Positions 12,376-20,700 of a stretch of DNA of 64,000 nt are shown here, in pieces (positions within the stretch are counted from its first letter, which is position 1; every line of letters begins with the position of its first letter). The stretch comes from Ectothiorhodospira sp. BSL-9. Lineage in GTDB: Bacteria; Pseudomonadota; Gammaproteobacteria; Ectothiorhodospirales; Ectothiorhodospiraceae. The position numbers were made by a program, and so were the translations under genes. Below the pieces are notes generated by a model. The model was not told the origin of the DNA and ran no database searches. It saw only the letters and a program-made list of their open reading frames with translations. The stretch lies in NCBI RefSeq assembly GCF_001632845.1, contig NZ_CP011994.1, positions 2,552,001-2,616,000 on the forward strand, in the 5' to 3' direction.

Positions 12376-13221
12376 TCAACGGCTTGCGGCGGCACGGCGC
12401 GGAGTGGGTTTTTCTGCGGGGGCGAACACGTCGAGGTAGAGTTTCTCGTCGAGCTGCGGCAGATCGCGCTGGGCGGCCACGGCGAGCAGTTCGGCGGCCA
12501 GGGTGGTGAGCAGGCGGTAGTTGCCGATGGCGTGGTCACACAGGGTGTGCTGGAGCGTGGGCGTCATCAGGCTGGCGTTGCCGGCGGTGTTGAGCAGATG
12601 CTGCAGGCAAGCCAGGAGTTCCTCGCGGCTGGCCGCTTCGGTGACCAGACGGGTGCGGATGCGGGAGCCGAGCGGGATCAGTTCCTCGCGGCGCAGCTTC
12701 TCGGGCAGGCGGGCATCGCCGGCAAGGATCACGCACAAGAGCGTCTGTGAGTCGAAGCGGGCGCTGGCCATCAGGCGCAGTTCGGACAGGACCGCGGGAC
12801 TCATTTCCTGGGCTTCGTCGATCAGGAGCACTGCGCGCCGGCGGGTGGTGTCCAGATGCGCGAACCAGTTCTCGCGCAAGGCCTTGAAGCCGCCCCAGCG
12901 GTTGTGTGGGCGCAGGGGGACGCCGAAGAGATCGCCCATCTCGCGGTAGAAGTCGGCCAACTGGCTCTGCGGATGATGGATGGCGACGACGGTGAGATCG
13001 GGCAGCCGTGCCAGGCGTTCCGCGATCAGGCGCAGAACCACGCTCTTGCCGGTGCCGGGGTCGCCGTTGATCATGGCGAAGCCGCCTTCGCGGACCAGGC
13101 CCTGTTCGATGCGCCAGTAGAAGTCCTCGACGCGTGCGGGCACATAGAGCGCCTCGACCGGGATTTCGGTGGCGAATGGGTTCCACTTCAGCCCATAGAG
13201 GGCCAGTAATTTCGAGTTCAT
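12376..13221 (-). CDS. Transposon AAA+ ATPase (TniB/ExeA-like)
   Basis: 281 residues, starting at 13221 with an ATGA overlap on the transposase stop. It has a Walker A motif (GDPGTGKS), a Walker B motif (AVLLIDEAQEMS) and sensor and arginine-finger regions downstream (GSRIRTRL). The N-terminus LYGLKWNPFA is typical of the ExeA/TniB group. In related elements (Tn7 TnsC, Mu MuB, TniB) this ATPase selects the target and activates the transposase. The coupled position after the transposase gene supports that role. Confidence 0.88.
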   Translation of the reverse strand: MNSKLLALYGLKWNPFATEIPVEALYVPARVEDFYWRIEQGLVREGGFAMINGDPGTGKSVVLRLIAERLARLPDLTVVAIHHPQSQLADFYREMGDLFGVPLRPHNRWGGFKALRENWFAHLDTTRRRAVLLIDEAQEMSPAVLSELRLMASARFDSQTLLCVILAGDARLPEKLRREELIPLGSRIRTRLVTEAASREELLACLQHLLNTAGNASLMTPTLQHTLCDHAIGNYRLLTTLAAELLAVAAQRDLPQLDEKLYLDVFAPAEKPTPRRAAASR

Positions 13222-14663
13222 GCGGAGTCCTCTTCGGGGTCTGGGGTGGGCAGGTAGGCGGGCGGCAGGCCGGTGGCGGCATAGTCGGCCAGCAACTGGC
13301 GCAACAGCGGCGCCATCCCCGAGGGTGGCAGTGGCGTGAGCGCGCGTGCCGCAGGTGGCCGGACGCGTCGTTGTGCGTTGGCGTTGGCGGATTTGTCGAG
13401 CGGCAGCACCGGGCACAGGACGGTGCCGGTGCGGGGATCGACCAAGTCGACGCGGGTGCGATCCCACCGCGCGTAGCGCAGCGACACCCGGTCGAGGTGC
13501 TGGTAGCGGGCGGGGATCTCGAAGCGCTGCCCCTCCAGAGACACCGTGCCATCGGAGCGTCGCTGGCGGCGGGTGACCTCAACACGGAAAGCATCGGCCA
13601 GTGCCGCGACCGGCGGGCAGTCCCGGCTGACGTTCGGCCCGGCCAGATAGCGTTTCAGCGGGGTGGTGTCGAGTTCACTGTGGCGGGTGCGGTGATACTC
13701 CTGCTCGGCCCAAGCCTGCGTGGTCTGGTTGAGCACATCGAGGGTGAGTGGGGTTTGTCCCTCCAGCATCGGCATCAGGCGACCTTCGATACGCCCCCAA
13801 AGGGACTCTTGCTTCCCGTTCTGGTAGGGAGAATACGGTAGCGTCGTCTGGTGCAGCACACCCAGGCGCTGCAATCCGGCAACGGTTTCCTCGGCGATCA
13901 TCGCTGCACCGTTGTCCGTCATCAGGGCACGCGGCAACCCGCGCTTCATGAGTGCCTGGGACAGGCCGTGGACGAGGCTCTGCGCCGTCTCGTCCAGGTA
14001 CCACTGCAGGTGGCAGATCAAGCGCGAGCGGTCATCCAGGATGCCGAGCAGGTACGGTTTGACCCAGGCGCCCTCTCGGGTCAGTACCTTGCGCGAACCG
14101 TGGTGGAAGTCCAGGTGCCAGAGCGCACAGACATGGTCCAGCTCGTAGCTGCGCACCTCCAGCGCTGCGAATCGGTCGCGGGCGAGGATCGCGCCGTCGG
14201 TTGCACACTTCGGCCGCGCCTGGCGGAACATCCCGTGCGCCTTCAGATAGCGCCGCACCGTGGGATACGAGGGCATGCAGACCTCGCTGTCGGCCAGGTC
14301 CACGCACAGGTTGTCGAAGTGCAACTGCACCGTCCAGCCCGGATGTTCCCGGTATTGCTGCACCAGGGCGGCGATCACGGCCGGCGTCATGGCGGTGAAG
14401 TGGCCATGCGGGCGGCGCTGGTTGCGCAGTGCCGCCACCGGGTCGGGGGCCGACCGTGCCGCGTAATACCAGCGCTCCAGTGTGGACACCCCGAAGCGCA
14501 CCTCGGTGCCGGTGACGGGATGGCGCCAGACGCGCTCGGCCAACGCCGCCAGTGCCGCCCGCAATGCTCCCGGTTCCGGCGGTGCGGCGAACAAGGGACC
14601 AATGATCGAGAAGCGCAAGCGCGCCCATCGATCACGCAACAGAGGATCGTTCGGTGGATGCAC
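13218..14663 (-). CDS. DDE transposase/integrase (rve domain)
   Basis: 481 residues from a GTG at 14663 that has a GGGAGA ribosome-binding site five bases upstream; a longer frame has no such signal. The N-terminal part is a helix-turn-helix region, the middle is an RNase H-like integrase core with D (WHLDFHHGS), D (LMTDNGAAM) and E (NGKQESLWGRIEG) catalytic residues, and the C-terminus has a Mu-type beta-barrel-like segment (LEGQRFEIPARY). This enzyme would cut and join the element's ends. The stop overlaps the ATPase start by four bases. Confidence 0.92.
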   Translation of the reverse strand: MHPPNDPLLRDRWARLRFSIIGPLFAAPPEPGALRAALAALAERVWRHPVTGTEVRFGVSTLERWYYAARSAPDPVAALRNQRRPHGHFTAMTPAVIAALVQQYREHPGWTVQLHFDNLCVDLADSEVCMPSYPTVRRYLKAHGMFRQARPKCATDGAILARDRFAALEVRSYELDHVCALWHLDFHHGSRKVLTREGAWVKPYLLGILDDRSRLICHLQWYLDETAQSLVHGLSQALMKRGLPRALMTDNGAAMIAEETVAGLQRLGVLHQTTLPYSPYQNGKQESLWGRIEGRLMPMLEGQTPLTLDVLNQTTQAWAEQEYHRTRHSELDTTPLKRYLAGPNVSRDCPPVAALADAFRVEVTRRQRRSDGTVSLEGQRFEIPARYQHLDRVSLRYARWDRTRVDLVDPRTGTVLCPVLPLDKSANANAQRRVRPPAARALTPLPPSGMAPLLRQLLADYAATGLPPAYLPTPDPEEDSA

Positions 14664-14761
14664 GTTCGTCTCCCAATATGCGCGGTGCCGGCGGCACCAC
14701 GACCGGGAGAGAAGGCTACGCAGCGGGAATCGGTTCGACCATTGGCATCCTCTGCGGGAAC

Positions 14762-15319
14762 TCAGCGCCCCTCGGGCGCCGTGATCGTGAGTGGGGTGAG
14801 CAAGGCCAGCAGGCACCGCAGCGGTTCGTGTTCCTGGCCGGGCAACTGCTCCAGGAGACCGTTCGGCAACCGTGCCGCAGCCACCGGCAGCAGGAACCGC
14901 GCACCCAGCACCCGCCACAGCGAGGTCCGCACAAAGTCTTCGCGCCACCACCGCCGCCACCGTGCCAGGGTGCGCCAGGGAATCGATAACGCTTCACACA
15001 ACGCAGCCGCCGCCGTGCCGTGCCCGGCCGGCCGGGTTGACCCCAGCACCACCACCCAGCTCAGCCATACGCGCCGCCCCAGAAAACGCACCGACTGGCT
15101 GGTCGTCCGACGTCGGCACTGGCTGCAGCAGAAACTCAGCCGCGTCGCGTATTCAGCGCGGAACGCAGGCGGGCAGCCGCGCGGCTTGCGTGGATAGTTG
15201 GCGCGGTGTAGCACGCCGCCACACGGGCACCCGGCCGCCTGCGCCTCGGCCGCCAATGCCTCATCGATGTGGATTAGAAACCGGAAAAACTGGGGATCGG
15301 ACAACGGAACATGGCACAC
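14762..15319 (-). CDS. Zinc-ribbon protein of the transposon
   Basis: About 185 residues from a GTG at 15319; a more upstream GTG at 15409 is possible. The visible features are a GCPCGG pair followed by FCCSQCRRRT about 40 residues later, a four-cysteine zinc-ribbon pattern, then a basic, tryptophan-rich region resembling a helix-turn-helix (WRTLARWRRWWREDF). It is the first gene of the four-gene element and probably binds DNA, for instance at the ends or as a regulator. I recall similar genes next to transposase/ATPase pairs in other proteobacteria, but no function is established. Confidence 0.65.
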   Translation of the reverse strand: MCHVPLSDPQFFRFLIHIDEALAAEAQAAGCPCGGVLHRANYPRKPRGCPPAFRAEYATRLSFCCSQCRRRTTSQSVRFLGRRVWLSWVVVLGSTRPAGHGTAAAALCEALSIPWRTLARWRRWWREDFVRTSLWRVLGARFLLPVAAARLPNGLLEQLPGQEHEPLRCLLALLTPLTITAPEGR

Positions 15320-15434
15320 TGTGAGTGTCTCTTGGCTTGGTAACCAGAGACTCCCCCAAAGGGCGCGTTCGTTCAAGCTCCCCGAGGGGGATCCCCCCTC
15401 AAACCTCACCCTGCGTGATCATTCCACCCGCAAA

Positions 15435-15439
15435 CACCC
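15435..15439. repeat. Target-site duplication, right copy
   Basis: CACCC, identical to 11998-12002, directly adjoining the right end of the transposon and lying in the middle of the hemerythrin coding sequence. Confidence 0.85.
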
Positions 15440-15564
15440 TCAGTAAGGGTGATCGTACTCAGTAGGGCGCCCAAACGGTTGATCAGGTCCACCAGATGTT
15501 GGTGCTGCTCATCAACCGTCGACAGGCCGGTAACGAAATTGGCGTTCCACTGGAATGCAAGCAT
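15435..15564 (-). pseudogene. Hemerythrin-GGDEF diguanylate cyclase, 5' part of gene split by transposon
   Basis: From an ATG at 15564, 43 residues encode the first helix of a bacteriohemerythrin domain: FQWNANFVTGLSTVDEQHQH, with the first iron-binding His in DEQH, followed by LVDLINRLGALLS. The frame then enters transposon sequence and stops after nine foreign residues at 15406. The first 41 codons plus two bases join in frame to base 12002, reconstructing the complete protein. The 175 bp upstream should contain the promoter; nothing specific was recognised there. Confidence 0.88.
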
Positions 15565-15739
15565 GGGAAGGGGCTCCCCTTGATGGATCCGGATCGCTGC
15601 TGCAAGAACACGCGCTGGAGGAAAATCGGTCGGGTACGGCCTGCCCAGGGTATACCCACTGGCGTAGGATCTGTATCCATTTAAGAACTGGTCTGATTCT
15701 AAGCCCGATCTCCTGGCTTGCAAAGGATCAAGGTCTGAT

Positions 15740-16270
15740 TCAGTACCGACGCAACCCGCGGGGGTAGGGGTACCAGGGGTCGTACCAAGGGTCGTAATAG
15801 TACGGGGGGGGATGGCGATACGATCGGTCGGTGCGTGGTTCAGGCCACAGGTGGTGTCCGGCTGTGCGCACACGCACATAGTCGTAGTCGTGCTCGCCCA
15901 CCGGTCGCGTGGCGATCCCGTCGATTGTTCCGGTCACGGTGAAGGCGCGCCCGGGCGTATAGATGGCAGGATCGAGGAAGCCCTCCACCACGGCCAGAAA
16001 ACGGCCGTCGCTGCCGTCCCCTGAGTGTGGTCGCCCACGGTTATCCAGTTGGCGGGAGACCACCTCAACCAGAGTGCCGTGCTCCTGGTTTTCCACCCCG
16101 GCGATGGAGCCACCCCAACGCACGTGTTCTCCCTGGAAGCGCTCAGGGGCACCCCGTACCTCGGTGAGGTGCGGGCTGTCCGGGGGCGGTGCGGGTATGC
16201 CCTTGGGGGTTGCGGCGCAACCCACCAGTGCCGCCGAAGCCAGCAGAATGGGCAGCAGCAGTATGCGCAT
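15740..16270 (-). CDS. Slp-family outer-membrane lipoprotein
   Basis: 176 residues. The start at 16270 has an AGGTG site and opens a lipoprotein signal (LLASAALVGC), so Cys at about 18 is the lipidated residue; a GTG nine bases upstream is the alternative. The mature part has the Slp-type features FQGEHVRWGGSIAGVENQEHGTLVEVVSRQL and a beta-barrel OB-like core, ending in a Tyr/Pro-rich tail (PPPYYYDPWYDPWYPYP). Slp proteins are starvation- or stationary-phase outer-membrane lipoproteins of unknown biochemistry. It is divergent from the light-harvesting genes. Confidence 0.85.
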   Translation of the reverse strand: MRILLLPILLASAALVGCAATPKGIPAPPPDSPHLTEVRGAPERFQGEHVRWGGSIAGVENQEHGTLVEVVSRQLDNRGRPHSGDGSDGRFLAVVEGFLDPAIYTPGRAFTVTGTIDGIATRPVGEHDYDYVRVRTAGHHLWPEPRTDRSYRHPPPYYYDPWYDPWYPYPRGLRRY

Positions 16271-16518
16271 GGCAATCACCTGAGAAGCGGCCTGGGATGG
16301 CTGTATCCCGTTAAGACCACCGCGCCGGGTGCAGGTTCGCTTATCGTCCCATTCTCAGTGCGCGTACCTGAAGGCCCGAGGAAAATCGAGCGTCTGGGAT
16401 TTTCTTGTGCTGGATCACTATCGCGGAAGTTGTCCTCGTGTAGTGTCTGCTGCGACATGCCTGATCGCGTGGAGTCAGCGCGGTATTTGCCAGTAAGCCT
16501 CATTTGGAGGGAATTTAA

Positions 16519-16677
16519 ATGGTTGACGAAATGAAAGGTTCGCTCTCGGGACTGAACGAAGAAGAGGCCATGGAGTTCCACGGTGTCTTCATGACCAGCA
16601 TGATGGGTTTCCTGGCGGTTGCCGCTGTGGCCCACGTCCTGGCCTGGATGTGGCGTCCCTGGGGTGTGGCTTGGTAA
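16519..16677 (+). CDS. pufB: Light-harvesting LH1 beta polypeptide, copy 1
   Basis: 52 residues with a strong GGAGG site. One transmembrane helix (residues about 22-44) contains the His (VAHVLAW) that ligates bacteriochlorophyll a, preceded by the second conserved His (EFHGVF) and followed by WRPW, the hallmark of LH1-type beta subunits. It pairs with the alpha subunit encoded 90 bp downstream to form the ring antenna in the photosynthetic membrane. No reaction-centre genes (pufLM) follow in this window. Confidence 0.95.
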   Translation: MVDEMKGSLSGLNEEEAMEFHGVFMTSMMGFLAVAAVAHVLAWMWRPWGVAW

Positions 16678-16767
16678 GACCGTTCGCCTGAATGGCGAAA
16701 CGAGTTCCAGGTTGTACCTCCAGCAAAGCAGTAGAACCAGTTTTTTTCCGATATAGGAGACTTCAAT

Positions 16768-16962
16768 ATGTGGCGTACTTGGCTGCTGTTCGATCCGCGC
16801 AGAGCGCTGGTTGCCCTGTTTGCGTTCCTGGCCGTGCTGGCTCTTTTGATCCACTTCATCCTGTTGAGCACCGAGCGCTTCAACTGGATGCATAGCGCCT
16901 CTCTGGTTGACACGACCGAGCAGGTTGCCGTTCAGGAAACGGGCAAGTCAACCCTGGCCTGA
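16768..16962 (+). CDS. pufA: Light-harvesting LH1 alpha polypeptide, copy 1
   Basis: 64 residues with an AGGAGA site. The order [11 protein letters not shown], a single transmembrane helix, [15 protein letters not shown] is characteristic of LH1 alpha; the His ligates bacteriochlorophyll a and the following aromatic residues tune absorption. The C-terminal tail ([22 protein letters not shown]) is longer than in the shortest LH1 alphas. The protein encoded by the second copy is identical. Confidence 0.95.
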
Positions 16963-17145
16963 ACCGGCCTGAGACGGTCTGATGTCCACGCTCCCGGGCG
17001 TGGATGACCACGACGAGACTTTGGGGTTTACTTGTGCTGAGTCACGATGCCAAAACTTGTCCTGGTGTAGTGTCTACTGCGAAGTACGTGATCGCGTTGA
17101 ATCGGCGCGGTATTTGCCAATAAGGCTCATTTGGAGGGAATTTAA

Positions 17146-17304
17146 ATGGTTGATGAAACGAAAGGTTCGCTCTCGGGTTTGAACGAAGAAGAGGCCATGG
17201 AGTTCCACGGTGTCTTCATGACCAGCATGATGGGTTTCCTGGCGGTTGCCGCTGTGGCCCACGTCCTGGCCTGGATGTGGCGTCCCTGGGGTGTGGCTTG
17301 GTAA
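17146..17304 (+). CDS. pufB: Light-harvesting LH1 beta polypeptide, copy 2
   Basis: 52 residues, identical to copy 1 except residue 5 (Thr instead of Met). The same GGAGGGAATTTAA leader precedes it. The 183-bp gap from the previous alpha gene contains a leader resembling that of copy 1 (blocks CTTGTGCTG and GTGTAGTGTCT shared), so each copy may have its own promoter or processing site. Function as for copy 1. Confidence 0.95.
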   Translation: MVDETKGSLSGLNEEEAMEFHGVFMTSMMGFLAVAAVAHVLAWMWRPWGVAW

Positions 17305-17394
17305 GACCGTTCGCCTGAATGGCGTAACGAGTTCCAGGTTGTACCTCCAGCAAAGCAGTAGAACCAGTTTTTTTCCGATATAGGAGACTTCAAT

Positions 17395-17589
17395 ATGTGG
17401 CGTACTTGGCTGCTGTTCGATCCGCGCAGAGCGCTGGTTGCCCTGTTTGCATTCCTGGCCGTGCTGGCTCTTTTGATCCACTTCATCCTGTTGAGCACCG
17501 AGCGCTTCAACTGGATGCATAGCGCCTCTCTGGTTGACACGACCGAGCAGGTTGCCGTTCAGGAAACGGGCAAGTCAACCCTGGCCTGA
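17395..17589 (+). CDS. pufA: Light-harvesting LH1 alpha polypeptide, copy 2
   Basis: 64 residues, the same protein as copy 1. Followed after 29 bp by a strong hairpin, so the antenna transcript ends here and does not continue into pufLM or pufC. The window holds only these antenna genes of the photosynthesis system; reaction-centre and pigment genes must lie elsewhere. Confidence 0.95.
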
Positions 17590-17618
17590 ACTTGGCCTCA
17601 AGGCGTTTGATGCCCGAC

Positions 17619-17694
17619 TGCCGGGCGGGATTGTTCTGTCATGCGCATCCCGCCCGGCATCAGGGTGGCCTCCTGAAAAACCCCGCCTTTTTTT
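17619..17694 (+). terminator. Terminator after the pufBA genes
   Basis: TGCCGGGCGGGAT (17619-17631) and ATCCCGCCCGGCA (17647-17659) form a perfect 13-bp stem with a 15-base loop; an uninterrupted T-run follows at about 17688-17694, perhaps after a second weak structure. Such hairpins also stabilise puf mRNA. Confidence 0.75.
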
Positions 17695-17764
17695 AGTCCT
17701 CGCCGTTGAAGGACTGCCGCTTCCCGGCGGCCACTTGCCTGTCACCCCTGCCGCCTGGCTTGCC

Positions 17765-20700
17765 TTATCCCTTATTCCGTAAAAGGGATCTGTCCCCTTT
17801 TTTGGGGTTCAGTAGCGCGTCCAGTACGCTTAGAAAATGCTCCACGTCCAGGGGTTTGGTCAGGTATTCGTCAAAGCCCACGCTGATGCCGCGCTCCACG
17901 TCTCGTTCGGTGGCGAAGGCCGTCAGCGCCATGACCGGTATGGCAGCGGTGGCCGAGTTGGCGCGCAGCCGCTTGAGCACCTGATAGCCATCCAGTTCGG
18001 GCATGTTGATATCCAGCAGGATCAGGTCCGGCTCGTGGGCGGTGGCCAGCTCCAGGCCCAGACCTGGGTCGGGGGCGCTGAGCAGGCGCAGATGAGGGCG
18101 CCGGGTGAGAATCTGCGCCACCAGACGCAGGTTGGCCGGATTGTCGTCGATATGCAGCACGGTGTGGGTCTGGGTTGCGTCCCCCATGGATGCCGGCTGA
18201 CTGCTGGGTTCCATGCGGGTCACCTCGACGGACTCCTGAACCCCCTGGGGCAGGCGCAACCAGAAGGTGCTGCCCTCTCCGGGCCGGCTGTCCACGCCAA
18301 TCTCTCCCCCCATGACCTCTATCAGTCGACGGCTGATGGCCAGCCCGATCCCCGTGCCCTCAATGCCCTCCATGCACCCCTCCAGCCGGCTGAAGGGCAG
18401 AAAGAGCTGATCGAGCTTGTCCGGAGAAATGCCCTTGCCGGTGTCAGTGACGCTGATGCGCAGCCATCCCTGGAAATCCGGGCGGATATCCAGGCACACA
18501 TCACCGCCGTCCCGGTTGTACTTGATGGCGTTGGAAAGCAGGTTGATCAACACCTGCTTGAGGCGTATCCGGTCGGCCAGGACCACCCAATTCTCGTCGT
18601 GGCCCGGGTCGATGCGGATCTGTCGGGCGTCGGCCAGGGGAGTGAGCAGCATCAGGCACTCGCGCACGAGTTCCCGCAGGGGGATGCTTTCGATGGACAG
18701 TTCCACCCGGCCAGCCTCCACGCTGGCCAGATCCAGCACCTCGTTGATCAGGTCCAGTAGATGACGACCGCCCTTGAGGATCTCGCCCACGCTGTCGGCC
18801 TGGATCTCATCCAGCGTGGGATCAGTCTCCAGTAACTGGGCAAAACCGAGCACGGCATTCATGGGAGTGCGCAGCTCATGGCTCATATTGGAGAGAAACT
18901 CCGATTTGGCCCGGCTGGCCCGTTCGGCTTCCTCCTTCGCTCTGCGTAGATCTTCCTCTGTCTGCTTGCGGTCGCTGATGTCCTTATGGCTGATCACTAA
19001 CTGCCGACCGGATGCGGGTCCCCCGTCCAGAGGGGTGGCCAGTACCATGAAGGCTGTGCCATTAATTCGGTATTCGTCCTCGAAATGGGGCACCTGACCG
19101 CGCAGAACCTCCCGGATGCCCGCCGCGACCCGGCGCGCCTCGTCCGCTGACTCACCCTGAACCGCAGTGCACAGGGAGAAATAGTTGATGCCCCGTCCCA
19201 CCGGGTCCTGGGCACCTTGGTGATGGCGGCTAAAGTCATCCCATGCACGGTTCACGGCGATGATCGTGCCCTCGTGATCCAGCACGCAGATGCTGGAGCG
19301 CAGCGAGTCGATAATGGCCTGAGTGAAGGCCAGCGTCTTGGCTTCGCGCTCCTGGGCGGCGGTTTCGATGGATCGGCGCTTGCGCTCCCGGTCCATCTGG
19401 TGCAGGGCGTGGGAGGTGTCCTCGACGATGCCCCGCAGCAATTGCAGAACATCCTCGGTGAACAGGCCCTTGTCGCGCCCCATGAAGCTGCCCAGGCCCA
19501 ATAGCTCATCACCACGGAACAGGATGAAGTGGACGCAGGTACGTATGCCGTTGGCGCCCGCCCATTCCCGCCAGGCCTCGGGCGTATCGGGGGACTCGCA
19601 ATCCTTGCACAGCAAGGGGCGGTCGTTCAGGCATTCCCAGGGATTGCCACGCAGTATTTCCCAGGTCTCTTGCAGAGGCAGTCCCCGGGCCTGTTCCTCG
19701 GTCAATCCATGGACCACAGGTTTTTTCAGTTGGGCATCGCCTCGGTGGCGCAGGCTGATGGCGCAGGCATCCAGGCCACCCTGTTCCACGAGGATGCCGG
19801 CCGTGCGATGCAATAAGGTCCCTTCGTCATCAATGCGGTTGATGCATTGATTCACCTGGGTGCGGGTGGCATACAGCCGAAAGATCTGTTCCAGACGCGA
19901 TTGGGCCAGCTTGCGGTCGGTGATGTCGCGATTGACACCGCGCCGCCCCAGATAGGTGCCGTCGTCGTCCACCACCGGCTGGCAGTGGTGTTCGATCCAG
20001 CGGATCTCGCCATCCGGGCGATGCACGGCAAACTCCAGAGCCATGTGGGACAGATCGCCCTCTTGATGGCTCACCTCCGTCAGGTGCTGGCGCCAGCGCT
20101 GGGCATCCTCCGGGGTGAAGAGTGTGTACATCAGGTCCGGATCCTTCAGGAAGGCCTCCGGGGGATAGCCACTGATGTCCTCACACCCGGGAGAGACATA
20201 GACATAGCGGCCATCGGCACCGTACCAGTAATCCCAGTCCGGTGAGTGTTGTGCGGCAATGCGATAGCCACGTTCGCTCTCGCGCAGTTGCTCGTGGGTG
20301 GTGCGCAATTCCTCCTCTTGGCGCATCCGCTCGGTGAGATCCACCAGGGCGCAGGCAAATTCCAGGTCCCGCCCGTCGCGGCCGGGCAGGCGTGCCACGT
20401 GCAATTCTCCCGGGAAGTGATCCTGCTGCGCGGGGCTGGCACTAAAATGGACGTCTGCCAGTCGGGCCTGGCCGTCTCGCGCGGCCTGGCGCAGGGCCGC
20501 CTGGACGATGGCCTCGTGCTCACGATCCACCAGGCTGCACAGCCTTTTCCGGCGCAGATGGCTCACGTCGAGCCTGAAAGCCTTCGCCGCCTCCTGATTG
20601 GCCTCCAGGATCATGCCGCTTTGATCCACCACCAGGGATGCCATGGGCAGGCCGCCGAAGAAGGCAGCGTAGTTATCCAGTAACCGCTGGGTGACAAACT

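Follow-up and report, generated by a model that had tools for sequence, protein, structure and literature searches.

The window analysed here is a stretch of 64,000 nucleotides from the purple sulfur bacterium Ectothiorhodospira sp. BSL-9 (G000:C1:2552001-2616000, in genome G000, one contig of 3,550,080 bases). At 16519-17589, on the + strand, it carries two tandem LH1-type pufBA pairs that stand apart from reaction-centre genes and are called orphans below. All four genes are intact by reading of their open frames. The features of the two cassettes are as follows.

16387..16518, + strand: leader of copy 1, homologous to the main puf operon leader and aligned with main and orphan leaders
16467..16481, + strand: damaged palindrome of copy 1, GCGTGGAGTCAGCGC, 5 of 7 arm pairs against the main-operon form
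16499..16964, + strand: putatively homogenised tract of copy 1
16519..16677, + strand: pufB copy 1, LH1 beta, 52 aa, residue 5 Met (open reading frame and NCBIfam)
16768..16962, + strand: pufA copy 1, LH1 alpha, 64 aa, residue 4 Thr (open reading frame and NCBIfam)
16984..17005, + strand: short hairpin 3' of pufA1, weak by folding energy (25 of 200 shuffles equally good)
17014..17145, + strand: leader of copy 2
17094..17108, + strand: corresponding damaged element of copy 2, GCGTTGAATCGGCGC, also with 5 of 7 arm pairs
17126..17591, + strand: putatively homogenised tract of copy 2
17146..17304, + strand: pufB copy 2, LH1 beta, 52 aa, residue 5 Thr (open reading frame and alignment)
17395..17589, + strand: pufA copy 2, same protein sequence as copy 1 (open reading frame and alignment)
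17619..17659, + strand: strong hairpin 3' of pufA2 with 13-bp arms, resembling the pufA-pufL hairpin of the main operon

Alignment, judged by eye, gives all cassettes the same plan of leader, ribosome-binding sequence, pufB, pufA and 3' inverted repeat. The 3' repeats of the two window copies were folded, and the stretch 17590-17700 reached -48.2 kcal/mol, a value that none of 200 shuffles equalled. An Rfam scan of 16200-17800 gave no match, and a sigma-70 promoter scan of 16250-17850 recognised no promoter. Further upstream, a DDE transposase and an AAA ATPase (12376-14960) precede an slp-like gene; the transposase scores above the cut-off for Pfam rve and below it for an IS481 model, and the unit is absent from the corresponding place in a second genome of the genus (G001, introduced below). 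A short open frame at 15406-15879, whose last ~32 residues resemble the start of a bacteriohemerythrin (below cut-off), is apparently a fragment.

In an NCBIfam scan run on copy 1, the genes matched pufB_517 with 79.7 bits (cut-off 61) and pufA_517 with 73.2 bits (cut-off 35). Because the pufA_517 cut-off also passes LH2-type alphas of the same genome (48-59 bits), the assignment to LH1 depends chiefly on near-identity with the main pufBA. An LH2 identity was rejected, as the window pair aligns with the main pufBA over 600 bases at 87%, but with an LH2-type pair over only 99 bases at 73%. Gene order differs too: beta precedes alpha in the window pairs, and alpha comes first in the LH2-type pairs of this genome.

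Genome-wide, 22 LHC matches were read as 11 pairs. One pair appears twice, at 14.6 kb and at 3542 kb, because the contig ends overlap, which leaves six LH2-type pairs and ten pairs in all. The ends in question (G000:C1:8298-22000 and 3536000-3549702; L027, L028) are 99.99% identical over at least 13,703 bases, an untrimmed circular overlap whose genes, including one pucAB pair, appear twice in the count. The six LH2-type pairs, alpha before beta, are dispersed at 1124, 1842, 2730, 3062, 3451 and 3542 kb; that at 3451 kb is the most divergent, with 99-116 differences versus 43-65 among the others (doubled pair aside). In another genus of the family, five LH2-like alpha genes of two alternating types stand side by side within 2 kb (L097; G046:C4, ~1389.2-1391.1 kb). 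The four LH1-type pairs of G000 comprise the two in the window, a third orphan at 2110 kb and the main puf operon at 3329 kb, ~760 kb from the window pairs, where pufL and pufM follow pufBA. By reading of its open frames, the main operon has a PufC-like cytochrome downstream and bchXYZ-like genes upstream, and no second pufBA pair was seen after pufC. An earlier note on this DNA had called the window pairs orphans and advised looking for the main operon elsewhere in the genome. Both points were sound: pufLM is absent directly downstream of either window pair, and the only two Photo_RC genes of the genome lie outside the window, at 3327-3329 kb.

To place the orphans in the genus, we searched ten Ectothiorhodospira genomes (G000-G009), all of which matched, yielding 19 LH1 cassettes. 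We take G001 as E. haloalkaliphila ATCC 51935, G002 as E. lacustris A-7Y, G003 as E. magna B7-7, G004 as E. marina DSM 241, G005 as E. mobilis DSM 237, G008 as E. shaposhnikovii DSM 243 and G009 as E. shaposhnikovii beta1. Ten cassettes, one per genome, are main copies with pufL and pufM homologues downstream. The other nine are orphans found in five of the ten genomes: three in G000, two each in G001 and G004, and one each in G002 and G009. Their leaders and 3' regions are homologous to those of the main operon, their frames are open in all nine, and synonymous base differences outnumber nonsynonymous ones in all seven within-genome orphan/main pairs counted (of nine orphans).

Orphan sites vary between species. 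In G001 the window site holds a single cassette, which combines leader 1 on the left with the right-hand flank of copy 2; G004 has one in this neighbourhood too, in inverted orientation. At the threshold used, the orphans of G002 and G009 and the second G004 orphan share no common neighbourhood with one another or with the 2110 kb orphan. Flank searches across the genus gave no clean empty sites, and no mobility gene was noticed, by eye, among the neighbouring open frames displayed for part of the orphans. A distant search for plasmid carriers returned three records, from other genera, covering 17-33% of the query. The E. lacustris orphan adjoins an open frame (L087 7298-8053) that we take to be spheroidene-monooxygenase-like (CrtA).

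The earlier note had described near-identical antenna pairs under less similar leaders, with beta residue 5 (M/T) as the sole protein difference. Compared ungapped at an offset of 627, the bodies (16499-16964 versus 17126-17591) show 6 differences in 466 bases and the leaders (16387-16498 versus 17014-17125) 24 in 112, and the translations bear out the single residue. The likeness stops just past the pufA stop codon, where the 3' ends diverge at once, so that the near-identical tract is bounded by divergence on both sides, as expected of a gene-conversion tract. At polymorphic sites defined over 12 aligned cassettes (66 pairs), the tandem copies disagree at 24 of 68 sites in the leader and at 6 of 111 in the body (Fisher, 4.5e-7); this contrast was tested since the earlier note had named it. 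Leader and body differences were in rough proportion in seven other cassette pairs inspected. A longest-run permutation test on the tandem pair (191/5000) was not significant after correction for 66 pairs.

Of the two origins that the earlier note had offered, gene conversion gains from the bounded tract and the leader/body contrast, and we infer that the tandem bodies were made alike in this way. Plain recent tandem duplication of one cassette, with no conversion, is very improbable. The single G001 cassette, which joins leader 1 to the flank of copy 2, speaks for it, but duplication leaves unexplained why the leaders differ so much more than the bodies and why the 3' ends part at once; divergent leaders with near-identical bodies fit conversion better. 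A comparison of G000 with G001 gives 3 differences in 467 bases for the main bodies and 8 in 467 for the 2110 kb bodies. For copy 1 and its G001 counterpart at the window site the figure is 37 in 463, near the divergence of the flanks (88-93% identity), which would fit a body replaced in either G000 or G001. We do not extend homogenisation to main and orphan copies across the genus: of 28 fixed-pattern sites (four groups), one is AABB, by genome clade, three are ABAB, by class, one is AABC, and 23 mark the divergent main copies of G002, G009, G003 and G008.

It is extremely improbable that one cassette was counted twice by the assembly. The contig ends do carry untrimmed overlap, and the tandem arrangement is seen in G000 only among the ten genomes, but the units differ in leader, body and 3' end, which a false doubling would not yield. 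Misassembly, which the earlier note had raised as an objection, is also unlikely for orphans in general, because four further Ectothiorhodospira genomes also have orphan pufBA, in one case at this very site.

Comparing all antenna copies, as the earlier note had proposed, revealed two class differences among the LH1 copies of the ten genomes. Over the 19 aligned rows, the only ungapped sites fixed differently between classes are base 16778, in pufA codon 4, and intergenic base 16750. Codon 4 is ACT (Thr) in all nine orphans and GTT or ATT (Val/Ile) in all ten main copies; apart from Thr4, the mature orphan proteins are nearly the same as the main pair. Residue 4 directly precedes a conserved Trp in the N-terminal segment, which is cytoplasmic. 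In a wider LH1-alpha survey covering the best 80 of 576 confirmed matches among genome contigs, Thr4 occurred in 6 of the 8 loci whose stretch lacks pufLM versus 2 of the 72 that include it. All six of these Thr4 loci among the best 80 are Ectothiorhodospira orphans. The other two loci lacking pufLM are L121, whose sequence stops 289 bases downstream, and L171, from an Ectothiorhodospiraceae MAG. L171 encodes an LH1-type alpha with Ile4, with pufLM absent in the 6.1 kb downstream, and is possibly another orphan pufBA, outside the genus. Since Thr4 is present in 2 of 72 reaction-centre-linked alphas, the residue alone is no mark of special function.

The leaders also separate the classes. A palindromic 15-mer, GCGTTGAGTCAACGC, lies at -52 of pufB and is exact in 9 of 10 main leaders (the exception being G007) and in none of the nine orphan leaders, which retain 5 or 6 of its 7 arm pairs. 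With any central base allowed, 9 of 10 genomes contain it at a single site each, and that site is invariably the one in the main pufB leader. The palindrome has no known function and may be an operator or a hairpin. Pair counts for an RNA hairpin at the element were no better than in shuffles, with 93.1% of cells pairing across 18 of 19 leaders (the element is not recognisable in G007, which was left out). Over the last 75 leader bases, mean identity is 0.77 among orphans versus 0.85 among main copies. Taken as a pair, Thr4 and the damaged leader element hint that the antenna subunit exists in a second version under separate control.

Phylogeny hints at movement of these cassettes. The main copies of G000, G001 and G004 form a group that takes in all nine orphans, with support of 83/94 when codon 4 is included and 96/96 when it is removed. 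G002 and G009 fall in a different clade in the pufLM tree (99/100). This conflict between the haloalkaliphila/marina-type grouping of the orphans and the pufLM tree suggests transfer between species. Forcing the G002 and G009 orphans to join their own main type cost 14.25 log units, and their independent origin from their own main copies was marginally rejected (AU p 0.040; the grouping was chosen once the distances were known). By eye, the leader upstream of about -75 is common to orphans and the haloalkaliphila/marina main type and is not found in other main operons. The plain reading is that orphans originated in a haloalkaliphila/marina-type operon and that transfer carried them into the lacustris and shaposhnikovii lineage. 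Alternatively, the main copy of the first group (G000, G001, G004) may have been replaced by an orphan-like one. As a single clade the orphans have support of 64/73, and without codon 4 the tree needs two class changes; class-wide inheritance of Thr4 is thus not firmly shown.

The interpretation to which we lean, by a modest degree, is that the window pairs are two of four LH1 cassettes in this genome, members of an orphan class that sits at several chromosomal sites, with homogenised bodies and a supply of LH1 uncoupled from the main operon. The orphans would be transcribed from their own leaders, and the 3' hairpin would protect the short pufBA message. Their products, some of them alpha-Thr4, would join the LH1 ring. 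With orphan control uncoupled from the main operon, the outcome would be more LH1 per reaction centre and rings of mixed alpha subunits. The suggestion of the earlier note that extra copies could raise antenna supply or respond to different light is plausible.

Pure gene dosage is a less probable explanation that we nevertheless take seriously. The orphans would work as the main pair does, and Thr4 and the damaged palindrome would be neutral legacies of one founding copy. The near-sameness of the mature proteins, the tolerance of Thr4 in reaction-centre-linked alphas (the 2 of 72 within the best 80 of 576 matches) and the lower identity among orphan leaders, as relaxed constraint predicts, all sit well with it. 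It accounts less readily for the retention of Thr4 in every orphan though other codons and the leaders changed, and the single founding orphan that it calls for is poorly supported as a clade without codon 4. Loss of the palindrome from orphan leaders could also signal that the orphans are silent relics of old duplications; this is very improbable, given nine of nine open frames, mostly synonymous differences and a ribosome-binding sequence in the aligned leaders. A bolder proposal, which we consider unlikely, treats the orphan cassette as a self-contained antenna module moving between chromosomal sites and between Ectothiorhodospira species. A dedicated alpha-Thr4 would then occupy set positions in the LH1 ring, or form rings of other size or lacking a reaction centre, and the puf-specific palindrome would have been shed so that output is independent of reaction-centre synthesis.

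The favoured reading, of LH1 supply uncoupled from the main operon, bears on two unsettled matters: what determines how many LH1 subunits purple bacteria make per reaction centre, and why several LH1 alpha forms persist in some of them. The main and orphan classes offer a clean natural contrast, with consistent differences at one alpha residue and at one 15-base leader element that is present once per genome. The genus is in culture, and both the regulatory and the structural question could be tested by single changes.

The literature searched, with subscription journals mostly outside its scope, yielded no paper on orphan pufBA in Ectothiorhodospira. The genome announcement of Ectothiorhodospira sp. 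BSL-9 mentions pucAB only (PMC5064118), and the accessible portion of an Ectothiorhodospiraceae comparison leaves extra pufBA unmentioned (PMC8877833). According to the available part of a published account, Thiorhodovibrio has additional pufBA away from pufLMC, with LH1 gene pairs in regions outside the canonical puf operon (PMC10609205), and the orphan pufBA described here is a further case of that kind. In Thiorhodovibrio 970, the same excerpt reports, the puf cluster itself is duplicated, with second pairs after pufC (PMC10609205). Ectothiorhodospira, by contrast, has one main operon and short stand-alone cassettes marked by a class residue and a damaged leader palindrome. Antenna genes also form a multigene family in Rhodopseudomonas palustris, where the pucBA pairs encode LH2 rather than the LH1 type found here (PMC9618040, as excerpted). 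Several distinct pufBA pairs in one genome, as in heterogeneous-LH1 systems, are present here as four LH1-type pairs. Mixed alpha/beta rings from several pufBA pairs are described, in the portions of the reports available, for Alc. vinosum (PMC10861460) and Thiorhodovibrio 970 (PMC10609205). For Allochromatium vinosum and Alc. tepidum, those portions give three pufBA pairs and one LH1 ring holding three alpha and two beta forms (PMC10861460, PMC11764377). There the alpha forms differ in a calcium-binding motif (PMC10861460, PMC11764377), whereas in Ectothiorhodospira residue 4 is the only consistent difference between the classes.
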